Assembly (NCBI RefSeq): GCF_030719215.1
Contig: NZ_CP120983.1
Coordinates: 2,728,001-2,792,000, forward strand
Reading direction: 5' to 3'
DNA from: Streptomyces sp. Alt3
Lineage (GTDB): Bacteria; Actinomycetota; Actinomycetes; Streptomycetales; Streptomycetaceae
Length of the DNA: 64,000 nucleotides
Shown: piece by piece, positions 9,913-64,000 of the stretch
How positions within the stretch are numbered: the stretch's first letter is position 1
Layout of the letters: each line of letters opens with the position of its first letter
The notes under the pieces: model-generated
Database searches by the model: none
What the model was told of the DNA's origin: nothing
Seen by the model: the letters and a program-made list of their open reading frames with translations, nothing else
Program-made: the position numbers and the translations under genes

Positions 9913-12030
9913 GTGTTCACGGGGATCGAAGAGGTCGACTGGGCCTCGATGAAGCATGCCTACGGCCCGGCCGACGACGTGCCCGGGCTCCTGTACGGAC
10001 TCGCGTCCCCCGATCCGGCGGAGCGGGAGAGCGCGCTCGACGGCATGTACGGCGCCGTCCACCACCAGGGCAACGTGTACGCGTGCACGCTCGCCTGCAT
10101 ACCGTTCCTCTTCGAGCTGGCCGCCGACCCGGGCGTACGGGACCGGGGCAGCATCGTGGAGCTGCTCACCAGCATCGGCGGCATCGACCTGGACGAGGAC
10201 GAGGAGGTCGACGAGCTGGACGAGGACGAGATCGAGGGCGTGGCGAACTACGCGATGGCGTCCGCCGCCGTGTCCGCGGGCTCTCCGGTCTTCTTCGAGC
10301 TCGTGGCCGACGAGGATCCCGGGGTGCGGCTCGCCGCCCCGCTGGCGCTGGCCACACTGCACGCCCGGCCGGCGGCGGTCCTCACACTGCTGCGGGAGCG
10401 GCTGCCCCTGGAGGCGGACGACGAGGTGCAGCTGGCGCTCGTCGAGGCCGCCGGCCGGATAGCCCTGCGCCATCGGCAGCTGGCGCAACGGGCGGCCGAC
10501 TGGCTGAGCCGGCTCGCGGCGGAGGCGTATCCGCCCGGGCTGCGCCTCGCCGCCCTCGCGCAGCTCGCCAGGAGCACCCCCGAGGCCCTGCCCGGCGATG
10601 TCGTGCGGGTGGTGTCCGGTCTGCTGCGGGAGCTGCGCGCGGGGACCGCCCGTCCCGAGCCCGCCGGGGACCCTCCCTGCGGGGACGAGGCGACGACGGA
10701 CCGGGCCACGGCTCCGACGCTGGTGGGGCAGCTGCGCGAGCTGTCCGCCGAGGAGTCCGCGGCGCGCGGCACGCCGTGGGCCACCGATCTGCTGCGCACC
10801 CTGCACGTGGGCCTGGACGACCGCGTGGCCGACCGCACGGCGCTGCTGTCGGACCAGTTGCGCAGCCCCGATCCCTGGCAGCGCGTGGACGCCGTACGGA
10901 TGAGCAGCGGGCTGATGCGGGCCTGGCGCGGGTCGTACGAGGACCTGGTGCGTCTGATCGGCGTGCAGCTCGCGGATCCGGAGCCGCGGCTGGCCGAGGC
11001 CGCCTCGTACGCGCTGGAGGACCTGTTCGGCCTGGCCGCGCCGGCCGGCGACGCGCTTGCCGCGCGGGTGGCGGCGGATCCGGGGGCCTGGGTCAAGGAG
11101 TGGCCGAGCGGCCCTCCGGGACTCGGCTCGTCGGTGAAGGCGCTGGCCGGGCTGGGGGACGCGCGGGTGCTGCCCGCACTCGCGGCGGCGCTGGAGCGGC
11201 CGGAGGTGCCGCACGACGTGGGCTTCGCGATCAGCTGTCTGGGCGGGACGGCCGCCCCACTGGCCGGGGCGCTGCGGCGCAGGCTGGGCGAGGTCGGCCT
11301 GGACGAGGGCGCGTACGACCGGGCGAGCCCGCTGCTCGCCGGGCTGACGGCGCTGCGCGCGGGCGAGGCCGCCCCCGAGGTGCTACGGGTGCTGCGGGGG
11401 GCACCCGAGTACCGGGGCGAGTGGCTGCGCACGGCGGCGCTCCGGGCACTGGGCTCGTTCGGGCCGGCCGCCCACTGCGCGGTTCCGGAGCTCCGGCGGC
11501 TGGTCCGCGGGACGGGGACAGGGGCGACCGAGGCGGCGGAGGCCCTCTGGGCGGTCACCGGGGACGCCGAAACGGTGTTGCCCGTGCTCGCCGAGGGGCT
11601 GGGTACCGGACAGGCGCGTGACTGCCGGGCGGCCGTGGGCGCGCTGGGCGCGCTGGGGCCGCGCGCCGGGGCGGTCGCGCCGCGGCTGCGGGCGCTGCTG
11701 GCCCACGAGGAGCTGTGGCTCCGGGTCGAGGCGGCGATCGCCCTGTGGGAGATATCGGGACGGGCCGCCGAGGTGGTGCCCGTGCTCCTGTCCGCCTGGG
11801 AGAAGAACTGCCATGTCAGGGTCCGGGTGGCGGAATGTCTGGCGCGGATGGGCCCCGGCGGTGCAGGCTCGGACGCGACACGGGTGCTGCGCGCCGAGCT
11901 CCTGTCCGTCCGCCGGCACAAGGCGATGGACGGCGGGTACGGCAGTCATGACACCCATGAGGACGAGAAGCTGCTGGCGCTCTGCCGGCGAGCGCTCACA
12001 GGACACACGGGGAGAGGAACCACATCATGA
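9913..12030 (+). CDS. HEAT-repeat protein
   Basis: 705 residues made almost entirely of paired helices of HEAT type. Repeat cores include DPGVRLAAPLALATL, DPWQRVDAVRMSSGLM, DPEPRLAEAASYALEDL and EELWLRVEAAIALWEIS. An acidic loop (LDEDEEVDELDEDE) lies around residues 95-110. The N-terminal module (MYGAVHHQGNVYACTLACIPFLFELAADP) recurs in diverged form in the protein at 58335-59837. Such scaffolds mediate protein binding; the partner is unknown. GTG 9913 follows GGGGAGGG. The 3' end overlaps the next gene by 4 bp (ATGA), so the two are translationally coupled. Confidence 0.85.
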   Translation: MFTGIEEVDWASMKHAYGPADDVPGLLYGLASPDPAERESALDGMYGAVHHQGNVYACTLACIPFLFELAADPGVRDRGSIVELLTSIGGIDLDEDEEVDELDEDEIEGVANYAMASAAVSAGSPVFFELVADEDPGVRLAAPLALATLHARPAAVLTLLRERLPLEADDEVQLALVEAAGRIALRHRQLAQRAADWLSRLAAEAYPPGLRLAALAQLARSTPEALPGDVVRVVSGLLRELRAGTARPEPAGDPPCGDEATTDRATAPTLVGQLRELSAEESAARGTPWATDLLRTLHVGLDDRVADRTALLSDQLRSPDPWQRVDAVRMSSGLMRAWRGSYEDLVRLIGVQLADPEPRLAEAASYALEDLFGLAAPAGDALAARVAADPGAWVKEWPSGPPGLGSSVKALAGLGDARVLPALAAALERPEVPHDVGFAISCLGGTAAPLAGALRRRLGEVGLDEGAYDRASPLLAGLTALRAGEAAPEVLRVLRGAPEYRGEWLRTAALRALGSFGPAAHCAVPELRRLVRGTGTGATEAAEALWAVTGDAETVLPVLAEGLGTGQARDCRAAVGALGALGPRAGAVAPRLRALLAHEELWLRVEAAIALWEISGRAAEVVPVLLSAWEKNCHVRVRVAECLARMGPGGAGSDATRVLRAELLSVRRHKAMDGGYGSHDTHEDEKLLALCRRALTGHTGRGTTS

Positions 12031-12350
12031 TCATTTTCGGCACGCGAGGCTATCTGTACCAGTTGGCGGTCCTGACGATGGTGTGCGGCTGGTGCGGCAA
12101 TCCGGCGGCGCACACCCTGCGCAAGCGGGTCACCAAGTTCACGCTGTTCTTCGTGCCGCTGTTCCCGTTCTCCACGAAGTACGCGACGCAGTGCACCTTC
12201 TGCGGCGGGGAGCGGCAGATACCGAAGGAGCAGGCCGACGGGCTGCTGGCGCAGGCCCAGGGCGGTCAGGACGGCAATCCGTACGGCGCGGCACCGCAGC
12301 AGCAGCCCGGCTACGCGCCTCCCGGCGGCCAGAACCCGTACCAGAGCTGA
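12027..12350 (+). CDS. zinc-ribbon protein coupled to the HEAT-repeat gene
   Basis: 107 residues. A treble-clef/zinc-ribbon pattern is formed by CGWC near residue 21 and CTFC near residue 54. Between them is a hydrophobic helix (KFTLFFVPLFPFS), which may be a membrane-interacting segment. The C-terminal 35 residues are a Gln/Gly/Pro/Tyr-rich tail. It starts in the ATGA overlap with the HEAT-repeat gene, which suggests the two act together. It is a common small protein in actinomycetes and its function is unknown. Confidence 0.8.
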   Translation: MIIFGTRGYLYQLAVLTMVCGWCGNPAAHTLRKRVTKFTLFFVPLFPFSTKYATQCTFCGGERQIPKEQADGLLAQAQGGQDGNPYGAAPQQQPGYAPPGGQNPYQS

Positions 12351-57595: not shown

Positions 57596-57991
57596 ATGCT
57601 TTCCCGCCTGTTTGCCCCCAAGGTGAAGGTCAGCGCCCACTGCGACCTGCCCTGCGGTGTGTACGACCCGGCCCAGGCCCGCATCGAGGCGGAGTCCGTC
57701 AAGGCCGTCCAGGAGAAGTACCAGGCCAATGAGGACGCGGACTTCCGCACGCGCGCCGTTCTGATCAAGGAACAGCGTGCCGAGCTCGCGAAGCACCACG
57801 TCTCGGTGCTCTGGAGCGACTACTTCAAGCCCCCGCACTTCGAGAAGTACCCGGAGCTGCACCAGCTGGTCAACGACACCCTGAAGGCGCTCTCCGCGGC
57901 CAAGGGCTCGAACGACCCGGCCACGGGCCAGAAGGCTCTGGACCTGATCGCCCAGATCGACACGATCTTCTGGGAGACCAAGAAGGCCTGA
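57596..57991 (+). CDS. sodN: nickel-containing superoxide dismutase precursor
   Basis: 131 residues. A 14-residue leader (MLSRLFAPKVKVSA) precedes the nickel hook HCDLPCGVYDP; after cleavage His1, Cys2 and Cys6 bind nickel. The rest is the four-helix bundle (ARIEAESVKAVQEKYQ and so on). It dismutates superoxide in the cytosol as a hexamer. AAGGA precedes ATG 57596. Nickel-dependent expression is known for the family, but no Nur box could be identified in the 180 bp between sodX and sodN. Confidence 0.97.
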   Translation: MLSRLFAPKVKVSAHCDLPCGVYDPAQARIEAESVKAVQEKYQANEDADFRTRAVLIKEQRAELAKHHVSVLWSDYFKPPHFEKYPELHQLVNDTLKALSAAKGSNDPATGQKALDLIAQIDTIFWETKKA

Positions 57992-58035
57992 CCCCGGGCC
58001 CGGCCGACCGCCGGCGGTCCCCGCCGGTCACGTCG

Positions 58036-58245
58036 CCCATCTGTCCGCACCCGGTCCGCCGGACGCCGTCCACGGCGCCCCTCACGGACCGGGTGCGGTC
58101 TTCTTTTCCCGCCTGCAGATGCGGCGCAGATACGCAGGCTGATGACGGCGGAAGCGTGGCCGACGACCATCTGGACCTGCTTGACGCCCGCCCCTCCTGC
58201 GACGAGCGCGGCGGCGTGGGGGGTGCGCGGCCATCTCCACCGCGC
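58036..58245 (-). pseudogene. C-terminal remnant of a tyrosine site-specific integrase
   Basis: On the minus strand, ALVAGGAGVKQVQMVVGHASAVISLR matches the HxxR-to-GHAS region of phage/ICE tyrosine recombinases (usually LIAxGxSVKxVQxxLGHxSxxxTLxTYxHL). The continuation EDRTRSVRGAV follows in the next frame and DRVRTDG back in the first, as in integrase C-termini, so at least two small frameshifts have occurred. The upstream catalytic Arg and the Tyr are lost. No tRNA or att repeat was found next to it. It marks the left border of an accessory segment. Confidence 0.65.
58045..58107 (+). terminator. hairpin with T-tract downstream of sodN
   Basis: CCGCACCCGGTCCG (58045-58058) and its complement (58085-58098), followed by TCTTCTTTT. 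This is the only plain T-tract terminator noticed in the window. Both arms fall on codons of the decayed integrase. Confidence 0.6.
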
Positions 58246-58334
58246 CACGCCTTCCGGCCACGCCAGTGGTCGTGAGGTCCGAAGAGGGCAGTCGGCACCG
58301 CTGAAGGCGTGGTCAGATGCTCTCGCAACGTCTT

Positions 58335-59837
58335 CTAGGAGTAGTTCCACTCTTCGCTGGGCAGCGAGTGCCACAGGTCGAGCCAGCTGTGGAGCAGGAA
58401 GAGCGGTCGGCTCAGGACGACGTCGCCGGCCCGCTGGGACCGGATCGCCAGGCCGAGGTCGGCGAGGACCGGATCGGCGGCGGGGCTGTAGGTCAGGCTC
58501 CCGGGCGGCATCGTCGTGCGGCGGACGAGCCAGTCCTCCACGTGGGAAGGCAGGCAGCCGGTCAGAGGGGCTCCGTCCAGTCTCACCTGGGGGCCGGCAA
58601 GGGCGTCCACGGCAACACACCCGAGGCAGTCTTCCTCGAAGAGGGCCCGGATCCCACTCCTGGCGAAGTCAGCGCAGTTGAGCTGTTGGTCTTCGCCGTG
58701 ACGGGAGTGGGTCAAGACGGCCGGTTCTTCGCCGAGCGCACCGGTGATCTCCCGCAAGGTCATCCCGAAACGCAAGGGACCGACTCCTACGTACGGCGTG
58801 AACGCCCACTCGGCGCGCTCCTCTTCCCTGGCTATCCGCCACGGGCCGAGGTACCCGGGCTCGCTCCCCGGATCAGCCACGGGTGGCTCGGGTGCCGGCT
58901 CGTGCGGGGCGGCTTGTGCACGTGCGGTCCGGTCCTCACACCGGCGGCCGAGTCGTTCCGGAGCCGCGGTGTCCTCGGGTTGCTCCTCCAGCCAGCGGAT
59001 CGCCTGCTCCTGGCCCTCCCCGAACGGGTCGTCCGCCAGAGCGTGCGCCCGGTCCAGGGCCGCGCGGTGTTCCCTCTCCGCGGCGAGGAGACCGGTGACG
59101 TCTTCTCCCCAGGCCACGAGGCGTTCCCGGGCGATCCACCGGTAGTACGAGTCTGCGCTCACGGCGAGGATCGTACGGACGGCGGGTGCGTACCGGGGGA
59201 CGGACGAGGTGAGGGCGGGGTCGGCCAGGAGCAGGGCGGTGGCCGCGAGCGCGGCCTCCTTCACCAGTCGATCATCGTCCTCGCAGAAATCCGCGATGCG
59301 GTTGTGGAGCACCGGCCGTGCCTCACGGGCAGCGGCCAGATCCTGCGCCGCCCCGACACCGTCCTCGACGTCCAGGCGGGCGATGTCGGCGAACGAAGCC
59401 AGCCAGTTCAGCAGTTCGGCGCGGAGCGGTCGGCGGCCGGCCCTGCGCTCCCACCGGTCTTCGGCGAGGGTGCGCGGATCGTCGACCAGACGAGCGACGA
59501 CCAAGGCCGCCGGAGCGGTTGCCGGAAAGACCCGCGCCTGATTGAGGAGCAGCCGGTACAGATCCCCGACCGCCCGCACCCGGCGGGCCGGGGCTTTGGC
59601 GAGCACCGCGCCGAGGATGTCCGGTGTGTCGGGCACGCCGTGCCGACCTGTACAGAAGTGCGGCAACTCCTCCCAGGCGGTGCCCGCGAGTTCAACCTGT
59701 GCTGCGGGGGGCAGGGAGTCGGCGGGATCATCAGGAAGGCCCGGGGCTGTTTCGTTGATCACGGCCGCAGTGTTCCAGCCGACTCCGACATCAGGGGTGC
59801 CGATCCCTGCCACAGACAGCAGACGGCTCACGGTCAC
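58335..59837 (-). CDS. HEAT-like helical protein with C-terminal unknown domain
   Basis: 500 residues. The N-terminal 300 are alpha-helical with HEAT-type pairs (YRLLLNQARVFPATAPAALVVARLVDD, RLVKEAALAATALLLADP). This matches in style the N-terminal module of the HEAT protein at 9913-12030. A Pro/Glu-rich linker (about 300-330) leads to a beta-rich C-terminal domain (YVGVGPLRFGMTLREITGAL, ARSGIRALFEEDCLGCVAVDA). The combination is reminiscent of immunity-type or scaffold proteins, but no toxin gene is adjacent. GTG 59837 is the track start; GTG 59831 is equally possible, and neither has a clear ribosome site. Confidence 0.65.
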   Translation of the reverse strand: MTVSRLLSVAGIGTPDVGVGWNTAAVINETAPGLPDDPADSLPPAAQVELAGTAWEELPHFCTGRHGVPDTPDILGAVLAKAPARRVRAVGDLYRLLLNQARVFPATAPAALVVARLVDDPRTLAEDRWERRAGRRPLRAELLNWLASFADIARLDVEDGVGAAQDLAAAREARPVLHNRIADFCEDDDRLVKEAALAATALLLADPALTSSVPRYAPAVRTILAVSADSYYRWIARERLVAWGEDVTGLLAAEREHRAALDRAHALADDPFGEGQEQAIRWLEEQPEDTAAPERLGRRCEDRTARAQAAPHEPAPEPPVADPGSEPGYLGPWRIAREEERAEWAFTPYVGVGPLRFGMTLREITGALGEEPAVLTHSRHGEDQQLNCADFARSGIRALFEEDCLGCVAVDALAGPQVRLDGAPLTGCLPSHVEDWLVRRTTMPPGSLTYSPAADPVLADLGLAIRSQRAGDVVLSRPLFLLHSWLDLWHSLPSEEWNYS

Positions 59838-59845
59838 GTAAGGCG

Positions 59846-59882
59846 CCGATGCCCTCGCTGATTACCACAACGAGGGCATCGG
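59846..59882 (-). terminator. terminator after the HAD gene
   Basis: A 12-bp stem, CCGATGCCCTCG (59846-59857) with 59871-59882, lies 4 bp past the HAD stop codon. It separates the four-gene operon from the HEAT-like gene. Confidence 0.7.
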
Positions 59883-59885
59883 TCG

Positions 59886-60431
59886 TCAGACGGCGCGGAC
59901 TACGGGTAGCTGCGAGACCCATGTCGTCAGCTTGGTCAGGTGCTCAGGTTGCAGCCCCAGGTAGGGGTCTGGCTGAACGAGGAGGGTCGGCGTCCCCTTG
60001 GCGGTGCGCTCTGCTGCCCATTCATGGTCGAGGCTGGTGAAGTCGTCGTCGATCCAGACGGCGGGGGCGTTTGCCAGCCAGTCGTTGACGTGGTCACGTT
60101 TCCAGAGGTAGCCGTCGGGGTGGCTGGTGGTGATCTGGGGGCGAGGCAGGTCGAGGTAAGGGAAGTCGGGCAGCCCCAGGAGAGGGCCGATGATCGTGGT
60201 GGCGTCCTTGCGCCAGCTCGTGCACCACACGGGGGTGACGAGTCCGCTGGTCACGAGGTCGGTGAGAAGGCAGCCCTGGCTGGGGTCGAGCCAGATGGGG
60301 ACGGGGTCGTCGGGGTGCCGGCCGGTGGGCAGGACGGTGTGGCGGACGTGGGTGGGCGGGGTGCTGCCGTCGGCGGCCGGGAAGGGGATGAGGACGCCGT
60401 CGATGTCCAGGAGCAGGTAGGGCAGGGTCAT
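59886..60431 (-). CDS. HAD-family phosphatase-like protein (RNA-repair SAK type)
   Basis: 181 residues. HAD motif I is [12 protein letters not shown] (Asp-x-Asp). Motif II is [10 protein letters not shown]. Motif IV-like acidic residues are in VWIDDDFT. A small insert replaces the usual cap. The order and the TSWxxDA element resemble the HAD domain of 'Swiss Army Knife' RNA-repair proteins. That class is associated with 3'- or 5'-phosphate processing, but the activity here is unproven. GGAGG lies 5 nt before ATG 60431; last gene of the operon. Confidence 0.85.
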
Positions 60432-60446
60432 CGGTGCCTCCGGCGG

Positions 60447-61139
60447 TCAGCGTTTGCGGGCGGTGATCAGGAGGGTGGTGGGCCACGGGTCGCGGCGCGG
60501 GTGCCGCAGCTCCACCGCCGAGGTGACGCGCAGGCCGGTCCGGGAGAGATGAGCGCCCCAACGGCAGGCGTCGAACTCCCATCGAGCGAGGGGCAGTCGG
60601 GTGCGGTCGGGCATGGTGACGTAGTCCTCGCGCGGACGGTCGTCCGTGGATGGATGTCTTCCGGCCCGTGCCGGGTGAGGAACGGAGAAGGCCAGGACAC
60701 CGCCCGGTTCCAGGCGCCGGGAAATGGCGGCGAGGAGGAGCTCGGGGGCGACGAGGCCGACGGCACCGAAGACGGAGTAGATCGTGTCGAAGGTCTGGCC
60801 GGTGGCCTGAAGGTGGTGCAGTGCGTGGCCGGCGGCGAACGTGGCGCCGTCGATGTGGCCGTAGTGGGAGCGGGCCCGGCGTACCTGGAGGCCGACCAGG
60901 TCTACGCCGGTGACGCGGGCCTGGTGATGCTTCGCGATGTGGGCCACGTTGTGGCCGGGGCCACAGCCCAGCTCCAGGACGCGTTTGCCGCACAGGTCCC
61001 GGCCCAGGATCTCGGCGCCGGGACCGATGCCCGCGTGGGTGCTCCATTCCATACGGGCCGGTGCGGCGAGGGCGTGCGCGGGGGCAGCGGCTGTGCGCTG
61101 GGCGGCATGGGCGTACCAGGGGGAGATCTGGGCGAGCAC
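60447..61139 (-). CDS. class I SAM-dependent methyltransferase (operon gene 3)
   Basis: 230 residues. Motif I is VLELGCGPGHNVAHIAKH, followed by VTGVDLVGLQVRRARSHY, TFDTIYSVFGAVGLV and EPGGVLAFSVPHPA. The PxxP and aromatic insertions between motifs suggest a small-molecule or polar substrate. GTG 61139 abuts the stop of the upstream kinase gene directly (TAG-GTG), with GGAGG in the last codons of that gene, so it is tightly coupled. Confidence 0.87.
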   Translation of the reverse strand: MLAQISPWYAHAAQRTAAAPAHALAAPARMEWSTHAGIGPGAEILGRDLCGKRVLELGCGPGHNVAHIAKHHQARVTGVDLVGLQVRRARSHYGHIDGATFAAGHALHHLQATGQTFDTIYSVFGAVGLVAPELLLAAISRRLEPGGVLAFSVPHPARAGRHPSTDDRPREDYVTMPDRTRLPLARWEFDACRWGAHLSRTGLRVTSAVELRHPRRDPWPTTLLITARKR

Positions 61140-62051
61140 CTAGACCTCCAGGAGTTGGACCACGTCGTTCAGGTGGCGGCGGACGACGGGGATGTACGCG
61201 GGGTCCTTGGCCGGGTCGTTGATCCAGCGGATGGCCTGCTCCATGAACCACTCCACGGCCCACATGCGGTGCCAGCCCAGGGCCCATGCCTCGGCGGCCA
61301 GGCCGCCCCGGACGGCGAGGGCGTCCTCATGACCGCCTGCGGTGACGTACTGCTCCAGGAACACCCGCATGCGGAAGGGGCTCGGCACGTCGGTGGTGCC
61401 GTGGTACGAGGCGAGGTCGATCAGGCCGGGTCCGGTGAAGGCGCGGGCGAAGTCGAGGAGGTGCCAGCCGTTCTCCCCGATGTGGACGCTCGTGGGGTGG
61501 AACTCGGAGTGGACCCAGCCGAACGGGTCGAGCGTCGCCCCCTGGACACGGGCCTCTGCCGCGGCGGAGATCTTCCCCAGGGCGATCTCGATGTCGTCGC
61601 AGTCCGTCCATCGGTCGGTCTTCCGCAGCCGCTGGAGGTGGCCGAGGGCTCGGCCGGGCAGGGCAGCGAGGCCCGCCCCATCGAGGAGGGGCAGACCGCC
61701 CCCTGGGCGGGCGGAGTGGAGCATGACGGCGGCGGCGACACCGTCGACGTCGTCGGCGTCCCGTACGGGGGTGCCGAGGTCGTCCATGAGCATTCCGAGC
61801 CACTTGTCCTGCATGGCGGTGGCGTGGAGCGCGGGGACCGGGAGCCCGCGCTGGTATGCCGCCCGAAGGGCCTGCGCCTCGCAGTCGAAGGGCTTCTTGG
61901 CATACTTGAAAACGGCTGTGGTGCCGTCGGGGAAGGTGACGCGTTCGACGCCGGACATCCCCCAGACACGAATCTCGGCACGGTCGGGGAGGGGCTTGCC
62001 GACGAGGGTGCACAGGTCGTCCAGCAGGGTGGCGGACAGGCTCTGGTCCAT
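61140..62051 (-). CDS. APH/choline-kinase-fold phosphotransferase (operon gene 2)
   Basis: 303 residues. Kinase-like features are VFKYAKKP (nucleotide-binding Lys), a catalytic loop WVHSEFHPTSVHI that corresponds to the usual HGDxHxxN, and LLDFARAF for the metal-binding Asp. In the loop the catalytic Asp is Glu and the Asn is Ser/Val-flanked, so activity may be altered. Family members phosphorylate aminoglycosides, choline, sugars or homoserine. ATG 62051 follows TGGAGA. Confidence 0.8.
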   Translation of the reverse strand: MDQSLSATLLDDLCTLVGKPLPDRAEIRVWGMSGVERVTFPDGTTAVFKYAKKPFDCEAQALRAAYQRGLPVPALHATAMQDKWLGMLMDDLGTPVRDADDVDGVAAAVMLHSARPGGGLPLLDGAGLAALPGRALGHLQRLRKTDRWTDCDDIEIALGKISAAAEARVQGATLDPFGWVHSEFHPTSVHIGENGWHLLDFARAFTGPGLIDLASYHGTTDVPSPFRMRVFLEQYVTAGGHEDALAVRGGLAAEAWALGWHRMWAVEWFMEQAIRWINDPAKDPAYIPVVRRHLNDVVQLLEV

Positions 62052-62073
62052 GGGGGTCTCCAGGGGGATGGCG

Positions 62074-62115
62074 GGCTCCGGGGCGGGCGCGCGCGAGCTG
62101 GCCCGCCCCGGAGCC
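62074..62115 (-). terminator. hairpin inside the operon, between genes 1 and 2
   Basis: A 15-bp perfect stem, GGCTCCGGGGCGGGC (62074-62088) with 62101-62115. It lies between the first gene's stop (62131) and the kinase start (62051), so it could be an attenuator or a processing site rather than a full terminator. Confidence 0.6.
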
Positions 62116-62130
62116 GTACTGGGGGCAGGG

Positions 62131-62880
62131 TTACTCGGCTGCGGTCACGCGGCGGGCGTAGACCTGCTCGATCCAGCCCGCCTTGAACTCGGCCAGGTCG
62201 TCACGGAAGTTGGCCATCGAGGCACCGTAGGGTGCGACGACGCCGCCGGACTGGTCCGGCACGGACTGGCAGCCATGCACGAGTCGGCCGCCGAGCGCGG
62301 CGTGGGCTTTGATGGACTCGATCCGGCGGTGCTCGTTGAACCAGCCGCCGTGGTAGACCTCGTCCAGCATTCCGCCCGTCGCGTCGTCCAGGTCGAAGAC
62401 GACGGACGTGGCGGCGGGGAAGAACCAGCACGGGCCGACGTTGGAGATGTGCCCGTCCAGCTCGGCCTTGTTGAGCGCCATCAACGTCGCTGCCTCGCGC
62501 AGCATGCGCAGGTGGTCGGCGGTGATCTGCGGGAGGCCGAGGCCGGCCAGGTGTTCCTCGCGGAAGAGGTACGTGTACACCCCGTACGCCGCCGTCAACA
62601 CGCGGGCGGCGTCGGAGGTGGACTCGCCGTGGTTCTTGATGAAGTCGAGCGCGAGCTGCTCGACCGTGCTCTCGGTCGTCTCATCCACGTCGAGGAGCTG
62701 GGCCTTCACCAACTCCCAGTCGGCGACGAGCCAGGTGCTGGACTCGAAGCGGAAGAAGTACTCGGCCGGATCGATGGTGATGCGCCGGCCGCCCACGTGG
62801 ATGCCGGGCAGGCGGTTCCAGCGCGGGTCGAAGGGGTCGGGCAGCTCGACCGTGATGGTCGCGGTGTCGATGGTGGTCAC
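62131..62880 (-). CDS. unknown protein, first gene of the accessory operon
   Basis: 249 residues. A short beta N-terminus (TITVELPDPFDPRWNRLPGIHVGG) precedes mostly helical sequence with several Trp/Tyr/Phe clusters (YFFRFESSTWLVADW, YGVYTYLFREEHLAGLG, NVGPCWFFPAATSVVFDLDD, HGGWFNEHRR). The family is not recognised. GTG 62880 is preceded by GGAGA. It is divergent from the HTH regulator gene, with 202 bp between starts. Conserved aromatic and acidic residues suggest an enzyme or a binding protein, but no motif supports a named activity. Confidence 0.7.
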   Translation of the reverse strand: MTTIDTATITVELPDPFDPRWNRLPGIHVGGRRITIDPAEYFFRFESSTWLVADWELVKAQLLDVDETTESTVEQLALDFIKNHGESTSDAARVLTAAYGVYTYLFREEHLAGLGLPQITADHLRMLREAATLMALNKAELDGHISNVGPCWFFPAATSVVFDLDDATGGMLDEVYHGGWFNEHRRIESIKAHAALGGRLVHGCQSVPDQSGGVVAPYGASMANFRDDLAEFKAGWIEQVYARRVTAAE

Positions 62881-63082
62881 CGTGTCTCCGTCTCTGATCG
62901 TCCGGGCCGGGGCATGGGAATGCCCGAGCCCGTTGGGGCGTACGGAACTTGGGAGCCGCCCGGCCCGCGATGCCGTGAGTGGGGCGGCTATCGATAAGTG
63001 AACCGTCCGCTACGCAGAGTGGGTACGGTGTGACCGAGGTCAAGCGGTATACACGGTTTACGGATCCGGAGCGGAGGCGATC

Positions 63083-64000
63083 GTGCCGGCACCGACCAGC
63101 GCCAACTCCCGCCTGCGCGACACGATCAACGCCGCCGGGTGCACGTATGACGCGCTCGCCAAGGACGTACGCCGCATCGCCGCCGAGAACGGCGAACTGC
63201 TCCAGACGAACAAGTCAGCCATCTCCCACTGGGTGGTCGGTGCCCGCACACCGACCGGCCAGGCAGGCCAGTACCTCGCCGAAGCCCTCTCCCGGCGGCT
63301 GGGACGCGTCGTCACCCGAACCGAGCTCGGCCTCCACTCACCCGACACGGAGTCGCCACCGGACACCGACCCCGTCACCGCGGTCACCGACCTCGGTCGC
63401 GCGGACGTCGAGCGTCGCCGCTTCCTCGCCATCGCCGCGTTCACCACGGCCGGCGTGGCCATGCCGCTTCTGCACGACCACGAAGCCACCTCGCGGATGC
63501 TCCGTGCCCGCACTGCCCGCTCCCTGGTCGGCAGCGACGACATCGACGTCGTACGGCAGATCACGTCAGCCTTCAGCGCCGCCGACGAACGGCTCGGCGG
63601 CGGGCACGGCCTGACCACAGTCACCGCATACCTCGCCGACACGGCAGCCCCCATGCTGCGCGGCCGCTTCCCCACAGAAGCCTTACGCCAAGCAGCCTTC
63701 GGCGCCGTCGCCGAACTCGCCTACCTCGCAGGGTGGAAGCACCACGACCTCGGCCACGAAGGCGCCGCCCAGCGCTACTACCAGGTCGGCTACCAACTCG
63801 CCTGCGAAGCCGACCCCCACGGCCACGCCGCCTGGATGATGCGCGCCCTCGCCCACCAGTCCCTCAGCCTCAAGCAACCCCACCACTGCGTAGACCTCGT
63901 TAGGGGAGCCCTCACCCGGGGCCTCGGCCACGTAGACGGCCAGACGGAAGCGCTCCTCCACATCACGCACGCCCGCGCCTACGCAGCGGTCGGCGAGAAC
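63083..64000 (+). CDS. HTH regulator with TPR-like C-terminus and a TTA codon, cut by window edge
   Basis: 306 residues visible. The N-terminal HTH is of XRE type (LRDTINAAGCTYDALAKDVRRIAAENGELLQTNKSAISHWVVGARTP). A linker with RRRFLAIAAF precedes a helical TPR-like region (AAFGAVAELAYLAGWKHHDLGHEGAAQRYYQVGYQLA). GTG 63083 is 5 nt after GGAGG. Codon 201 (63683-63685) is TTA, read only by the bldA tRNA in Streptomyces. It is divergent from the four-gene operon and is its probable regulator. The 3' end lies beyond the window. Confidence 0.85.
   Translation, partial: MPAPTSANSRLRDTINAAGCTYDALAKDVRRIAAENGELLQTNKSAISHWVVGARTPTGQAGQYLAEALSRRLGRVVTRTELGLHSPDTESPPDTDPVTAVTDLGRADVERRRFLAIAAFTTAGVAMPLLHDHEATSRMLRARTARSLVGSDDIDVVRQITSAFSAADERLGGGHGLTTVTAYLADTAAPMLRGRFPTEALRQAAFGAVAELAYLAGWKHHDLGHEGAAQRYYQVGYQLACEADPHGHAAWMMRALAHQSLSLKQPHHCVDLVRGALTRGLGHVDGQTEALLHITHARAYAAVGEN

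Follow-up and report, generated by a model that had tools for sequence, protein, structure and literature searches.

What are four adjoining minus-strand genes, divergent from a regulator gene and headed by a protein without recognised relatives, doing on the chromosome of Streptomyces sp. Alt3, and do they form a system at all? The locus lies in a stretch of 64,000 nucleotides (contig NZ_CP120983.1, positions 2,728,001 to 2,792,000; hereafter the window, meaning the whole stretch of DNA that was analysed). To us it looks like part of one undescribed system of six neighbouring genes, kept as a unit and mobile among Streptomyces. The operon's first gene encodes an orphan protein of 249 amino acids (U249; 62131..62880, minus strand), followed on the same strand by an APH-like kinase family protein (303 amino acids; 61140..62051), a class I S-adenosylmethionine-dependent methyltransferase (230 amino acids; 60447..61139; Methyltransf_25, E 1.2e-14) and a HAD-family phosphatase-like protein (181 amino acids; 59886..60431). 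The plus strand carries an NsdA-family regulator of 451 amino acids with helix-turn-helix and tetratricopeptide-repeat parts (HTH-TPR; 63083..64000, running beyond the window end) and, starting 1 bp after it and just past the window end, the gene for a Nudix hydrolase of 176 amino acids (G000:C1 2792440-2792970, or L002:7441-7971; PF00293, E 4e-20). A first-pass annotation of the window had located all four minus-strand genes correctly, as well as the divergent regulator and the gaps of 0 bp between kinase and methyltransferase and 15 bp between methyltransferase and HAD genes. Its description of four tightly packed genes holds for three of them but not for U249, which is 79 bp from the kinase gene, and the five genes that it grouped do belong together but make up a set of six once the Nudix gene is included.

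The grouping is not a product of chance, because the same order recurs at more than 100 Streptomyces loci under purifying selection. Searches with the window proteins (tblastn) and a comparison of gene neighbourhoods revealed this order in loci of other genomes. We used 120 loci drawn from two collections, in which some genomes are possibly counted twice, and 104 of them hold the full set: Nudix and regulator facing U249, kinase, methyltransferase and HAD, with variable flanking genes on both sides. Each of the six evolves under purifying selection, with median ratios of nonsynonymous to synonymous substitution (dN/dS) of 0.15-0.31 in sampled pairs. The U249 family hardly occurs outside Streptomyces, and its distribution is sporadic (43 of 247 sampled Streptomyces genomes; 58 of 392 sampled genomes of the order), with 187 stretches found in GTDB species genomes and almost none outside the order in a phylum-wide search. 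Order, co-occurrence and sporadic spread thus support the earlier suggestion of a dedicated accessory system rather than a housekeeping one, and the outcome that the first-pass annotation had named as fatal to its idea, genes lying apart in most genomes, is the opposite of what was observed. Roughly one Streptomyces species in six carries a cassette whose central protein lies outside every described family, and we found no description of the six-gene set in the papers searched. The genus and order surveys (247 and 392 genomes) yielded no genome with two full copies; Streptomyces sp. ISL-12 holds two copies (L100, L107). Damaged copies also exist (L048, L058, L222, L223), in which the U249, kinase or methyltransferase gene is frameshifted or partly deleted, so the host can survive loss of the cassette.

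Integrative mobilizable elements carry the cassette and insert beside sodN, the gene for nickel superoxide dismutase, or ychF. The flanks available for each locus span about 7-9.5 kb, and the following counts are therefore lower bounds: a MobA/VirD2-type relaxase is present in at least 60 of the 120 loci, a MobC/NikA-like protein beyond the HAD gene in at least 54 and a tyrosine integrase in at least 20, while sodN follows in at least 16 and ychF in at least 18. An integrase, a relaxase, flanking direct repeats and a fixed site are found across the loci, and the window copy retains only remnants of the two enzymes. In a tree built from the six proteins joined end to end, well supported branches show at least two switches between sodN and ychF sites, and parsimony gives five, which means that the cassette has changed its integration site. 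In the ychF loci (for example L041, L078 and L097) an element of the same kind adjoins the 3' end of that gene, and within the flanks examined these loci gave no clear long direct repeat and no far element end. A tRNA gene as attachment site was considered and rejected, as ARAGORN called none in 18 of 19 loci and made one unassigned call in the remaining locus. A search of L002 against Rfam returned nothing.

Loci that depart from the full arrangement show which genes are constant. The minimal core is a pair, U249 and the methyltransferase, which occur without kinase and without HAD in L064, L065, L067, L219, L220 and on plasmid pMDJK44.1 (L154); the methyltransferase of these loci has 34-51% identity. 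All four minus-strand genes are present in L063, L066, L068, L185 and L221, with U249 broken in L068. The kinase and HAD genes are therefore mostly present or absent together, a pattern that suits a phosphate being added and then removed. Plasmid CP108401.1 carries U249, the kinase and a short methyltransferase according to its annotation table, and tblastn found no HAD gene on it. In L064, L065, L067, L219 and L220 the divergent side consists not of regulator and Nudix but of two other genes, f109 (432 amino acids) and the P-loop protein f61 (436 amino acids), which are partly broken or missing in some of these loci. Neither has a PADLOC or Pfam match, and f61 is also present in genomes without U249. 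Near the cassettes of L064 and L220 we also noticed a protein of 297-330 amino acids that resembles ParB/DGQHR proteins by eye.

The head of the operon has kept the status that the first-pass annotation gave it, a protein of no recognised family. Searches of Pfam (including 20 members of the family), NCBIfam, PADLOC, the PDB by profile and phage records yielded no relative of U249, PHROGs not being among the collections searched. The sole weak match of the phylum-wide search (G560) lies in a GGDEF/EAL protein and was judged to be due to chance. The most conserved stretches fall in the C-terminal half (DEVYHG.WFNE.RR.E..KAH.ALGGRLVHGCQ). Structure prediction, which had been proposed as a way forward, produced two AlphaFold2 models, one from 20 sequences and one from 46, of a mixed, mostly helical protein with a predicted local distance difference test (pLDDT) score of 74. 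Residues 143-149 and 201-222 are modelled with low confidence, even though 201-222 is highly conserved. The models have no structural match in Foldseek searches of PDB and viral structures or by VIA-align, a result limited by the low-confidence stretches, so that a known fold may have been missed.

Codon usage offers a further hint about this protein. The G+C content at third codon positions (GC3) of U249 is 0.965, compared with 0.959 for sodN and 0.967 for ychF, whereas the other five cassette genes range from 0.87 to 0.91 and the relaxase gene stands at 0.85. Synonymous diversity in U249 reaches about half the level seen in the neighbouring genes. Given this resemblance to sodN and ychF and the low synonymous diversity, U249 is probably highly expressed and abundant. 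A hidden gene within U249 was considered as the cause of the low diversity and rejected: alternative frames are long in many members, as expected at high G+C, but are not conserved in all, so codon choice linked to expression explains the observation better.

The enzymes encoded beside U249 all belong to known superfamilies, which leaves U249 as the only exception. Catalytic motifs are intact in the HAD protein, the methyltransferase and the Nudix enzyme. The methyltransferase motif ELGCGPG is kept in 95 of 99 relatives; the HAD motifs LDIDG, WCTSW, WKRDH and WIDDD are kept in 83-95 of 99; and the Nudix box GX5EX7REUXEEXGU is present and conserved. The match of the HAD protein to PF18143 (HAD_SAK_2) passes the cut-off (E 1.8e-8). 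Relatives of the HAD protein were found in 46 of 61 related genomes, for the most part away from any locus of the U249 type. The APH-fold kinase of the first-pass annotation is less clear-cut. The assignment has support only by way of relatives, in that two of 17, both divergent members, match PF01636 (APH; best E 1.8e-12), but the window protein itself has no Pfam match and its motif is atypical. This motif is HSEFHPTS in 102 of 103 proteins and HSELHPTS in the other, which does not fit the APH pattern HxD....N, while K49, E58, H181, E183 and D200 are invariant in the 17 relatives. A solitary relative with 40% identity (L184:9311-10231), in a genome without U249, has HTEIAGNG in place of HSEFHPTS.

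How might such a cassette be controlled? Its regulator matches NCBIfam NF053720 over its full length (354.8 bits against a cut-off of 75; E 1e-105). It shares this HTH-TPR-like subfamily with NsdA and NsdB of Streptomyces coelicolor, but it falls well below the equivalog cut-offs of both and, unlike them, is carried horizontally with its own operator-like element and a conserved TTA codon. This element is an 18-bp sequence, GTAWACCGYGTATACCGC, which nearly all full loci contain, once each and always between the regulator and U249 genes (101 gaps aligned). The window copy, GTAAACCGTGTATACCGC (63044..63061, minus strand), comprises two 9-bp tandem copies of GTA[A/T]ACCG[C/T], is a probable operator and occurs once in its own genome of 8.65 Mb, even when up to two mismatches are allowed. 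Positioned 22-39 bp upstream of the start of the regulator gene, it includes TATACA/TATACG, which could serve as the -10 hexamer of the regulator promoter. A scan of 59800-63200 for full sigma-70-like promoters and terminators found none. TTA, the rare codon that is read in Streptomyces by the bldA tRNA, had been reported in the regulator gene and is indeed there, at 63683-63685. Codon 201 of the regulator is TTA in 77 of 104 loci, and 93 of 104 have at least one TTA, which suggests bldA control of the regulator. The other cassette genes mostly lack TTA codons, except for the HAD gene (40 of 104 loci). In 37 of the 104 the HAD codon lies near the 3' end, at codon 175, a second possible link to bldA.

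We tentatively favour the idea that the cassette is a self-regulated chemical modification pathway headed by U249, and hold this with some reserve. In the scheme that we infer, U249, made abundantly, would be the founding enzyme or a substrate carrier, and the methyltransferase, as its constant partner, would methylate the product of U249 or U249 itself. The kinase-like protein would presumably add a phosphate that the HAD phosphatase later removes, giving protection or activation for a limited time. The Nudix enzyme might clear a by-product linked to a nucleoside diphosphate or reset a signal. The NsdA-type regulator is predicted to hold both arms off through binding to the tandem repeat, which overlaps the regulator's own promoter in this scheme, and its rare TTA codon would couple the cassette to development via the bldA tRNA. 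The product may then be of use, late in growth, to the cell or to the element, perhaps as a signal or a protective small molecule. Such a pathway is supported by the cassette in the window, which remains intact despite decay of the relaxase and integrase of its element. If a product is indeed made, the pathway would be invisible to genome mining that is built on known enzymes.

Several points weigh against this proposal. The cassette lacks the transporter expected for a secreted product. The kinase-like protein may not be a kinase, given that Glu replaces the catalytic Asp, and Ser the APH Asn, in almost every member. An enzymatic role for U249 is a guess, as its models have no recognisable fold. 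Furthermore, binding of the repeat by the regulator, repression and bldA control are predictions from sequence. One likeness is to self-protecting antibiotic tailoring of the type seen in streptomycin biosynthesis, which employs a kinase and a phosphatase, in that kinase, methyltransferase and phosphatase share one operon. The cassette differs in having no known scaffold enzyme, no transporter, the orphan U249 and an atypical kinase motif.

The main rival is an immunity or exclusion module, which we consider unlikely but serious. The regulator and Nudix enzyme would act like xre-nud and Pif, and U249 with its modifying enzymes would block a second element, plasmid or phage. The xre-nud precedent, Pif and the adjoining defence cargo give this idea its rank. 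The Nudix protein Pif of pSAM2 confers conjugal immunity, and xre-nud(-mdp) clusters, in which an XRE-type regulator adjoins a Nudix gene, have been recorded in the integrative and conjugative elements pSAM2, pMEA100 and pSE211 of actinomycetes (PMC3218068). Also consistent with immunity are the location of the cassette, which in about half of the loci is an element with relaxase, MobC and integrase genes, its defence neighbours (a Gabija pair here, Mokosh- and AbiJ-like genes in other copies) and the lack of two full copies in any surveyed genome. However, single copies may reflect one acquisition only, and Streptomyces sp. ISL-12 has two. The cassette stays intact after the transfer genes of its element have decayed, and the conserved TTA codon fits developmental timing better than instant defence. 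No described anti-phage system was matched in PADLOC: U249, kinase, HAD and regulator had no match, and the methyltransferase had a partial match to mad2 only. Moreover, unlike xre-nud(-mdp), the cassette has an NsdA-type regulator with TPR, no mdp and an attached divergent operon of U249, kinase, methyltransferase and HAD, and its carrier uses a MobA/VirD2-type relaxase where those elements carry an FtsK-like transfer protein. If the cassette does protect its element, it would add a further module to the arms race among mobile elements.

Rather doubtful, in our estimate, is a new kind of system centred on U249, in which the abundant orphan is itself modified by methylation, phosphorylation and dephosphorylation, or makes a nucleotide-like messenger that the HTH-TPR regulator senses, as part of a signalling or immunity circuit of the mobile element. 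Whichever of these functions applies, a six-gene unit with a single operator-like element and a single regulator is a ready experimental object.

A resistance or detoxification operon seems improbable. In such an operon an antibiotic would be sensed by the regulator and inactivated by kinase and methyltransferase, with the HAD and Nudix enzymes in charge of cleaning up. Kinases and methyltransferases are common resistance chemistries, and the cassette moves on mobile elements with its own regulator, but this proposal gives no role to U249, the best conserved gene of the cassette and apparently the one with the highest expression. Any resistance due to the kinase would be reversed by a phosphatase next to it, the kinase motif is atypical and a transporter is missing. 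The RNA-end role that the first-pass annotation raised for the enzyme set with its RNA-repair-type HAD can be dismissed as very improbable: the stand-alone HAD protein shares the PF18143 domain with the Swiss-army-knife (HAD_SAK) RNA repair proteins, but its relatives are common across the genus outside such loci, it is missing from the loci with only U249 and methyltransferase, and no RNA ligase, RNA kinase, RNA-binding or other RNA repair domain was found in the cassette proteins.

The element that carries the cassette in the window is a decayed one of about 15 kb. The first-pass annotation had rightly placed an integrase remnant beside the operon but missed the surrounding mobile element and the Nudix gene. 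At the integration site, sodN (57596..57991, plus strand; PF09055, E 3e-44) ends in the left copy of a 142-bp direct repeat (attL, 57970..58110, strand not assigned; 97% identity over 142 bp). The right copy lies outside the window, 15.2 kb from the left one, at about G000:C1 2801150-2801291, and a core of about 21 bp in this repeat is common to other sodN loci. In a genome without U249 (G005), 617 bp separate sodN from the gene that flanks the element on the right, and no part of the element lies in that interval. The integrase is reduced to a broken C-terminal end (58026..58182, minus strand; tblastn of intact 384-residue copies, 48-85% over short pieces) and the relaxase to its last 27 residues (58221..58301, plus strand; tblastn, 59-67%).

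Beyond the window, the same element encodes GajB (E 9e-197) and GajA (E 3e-209), a Gabija pair, at L002:8368-10257 and 10254-12134 (G000:C1 about 2793367-2797133), with 51-56% G+C; the GajA frame begins about 100 residues into its profile. Adjoining the right end of the element is a protein of 580 amino acids (L002:14296-16038) whose C-terminal part matches HEC-07, a candidate defence family. Other copies of the element carry Mokosh-, AbiJ- and protein-kinase-like genes amid much unrelated cargo. Finally, a protein of 500 amino acids encoded within the element (58335-59837) has no Pfam or NCBIfam match, and its relatives adjoin the cassette in 18 loci.

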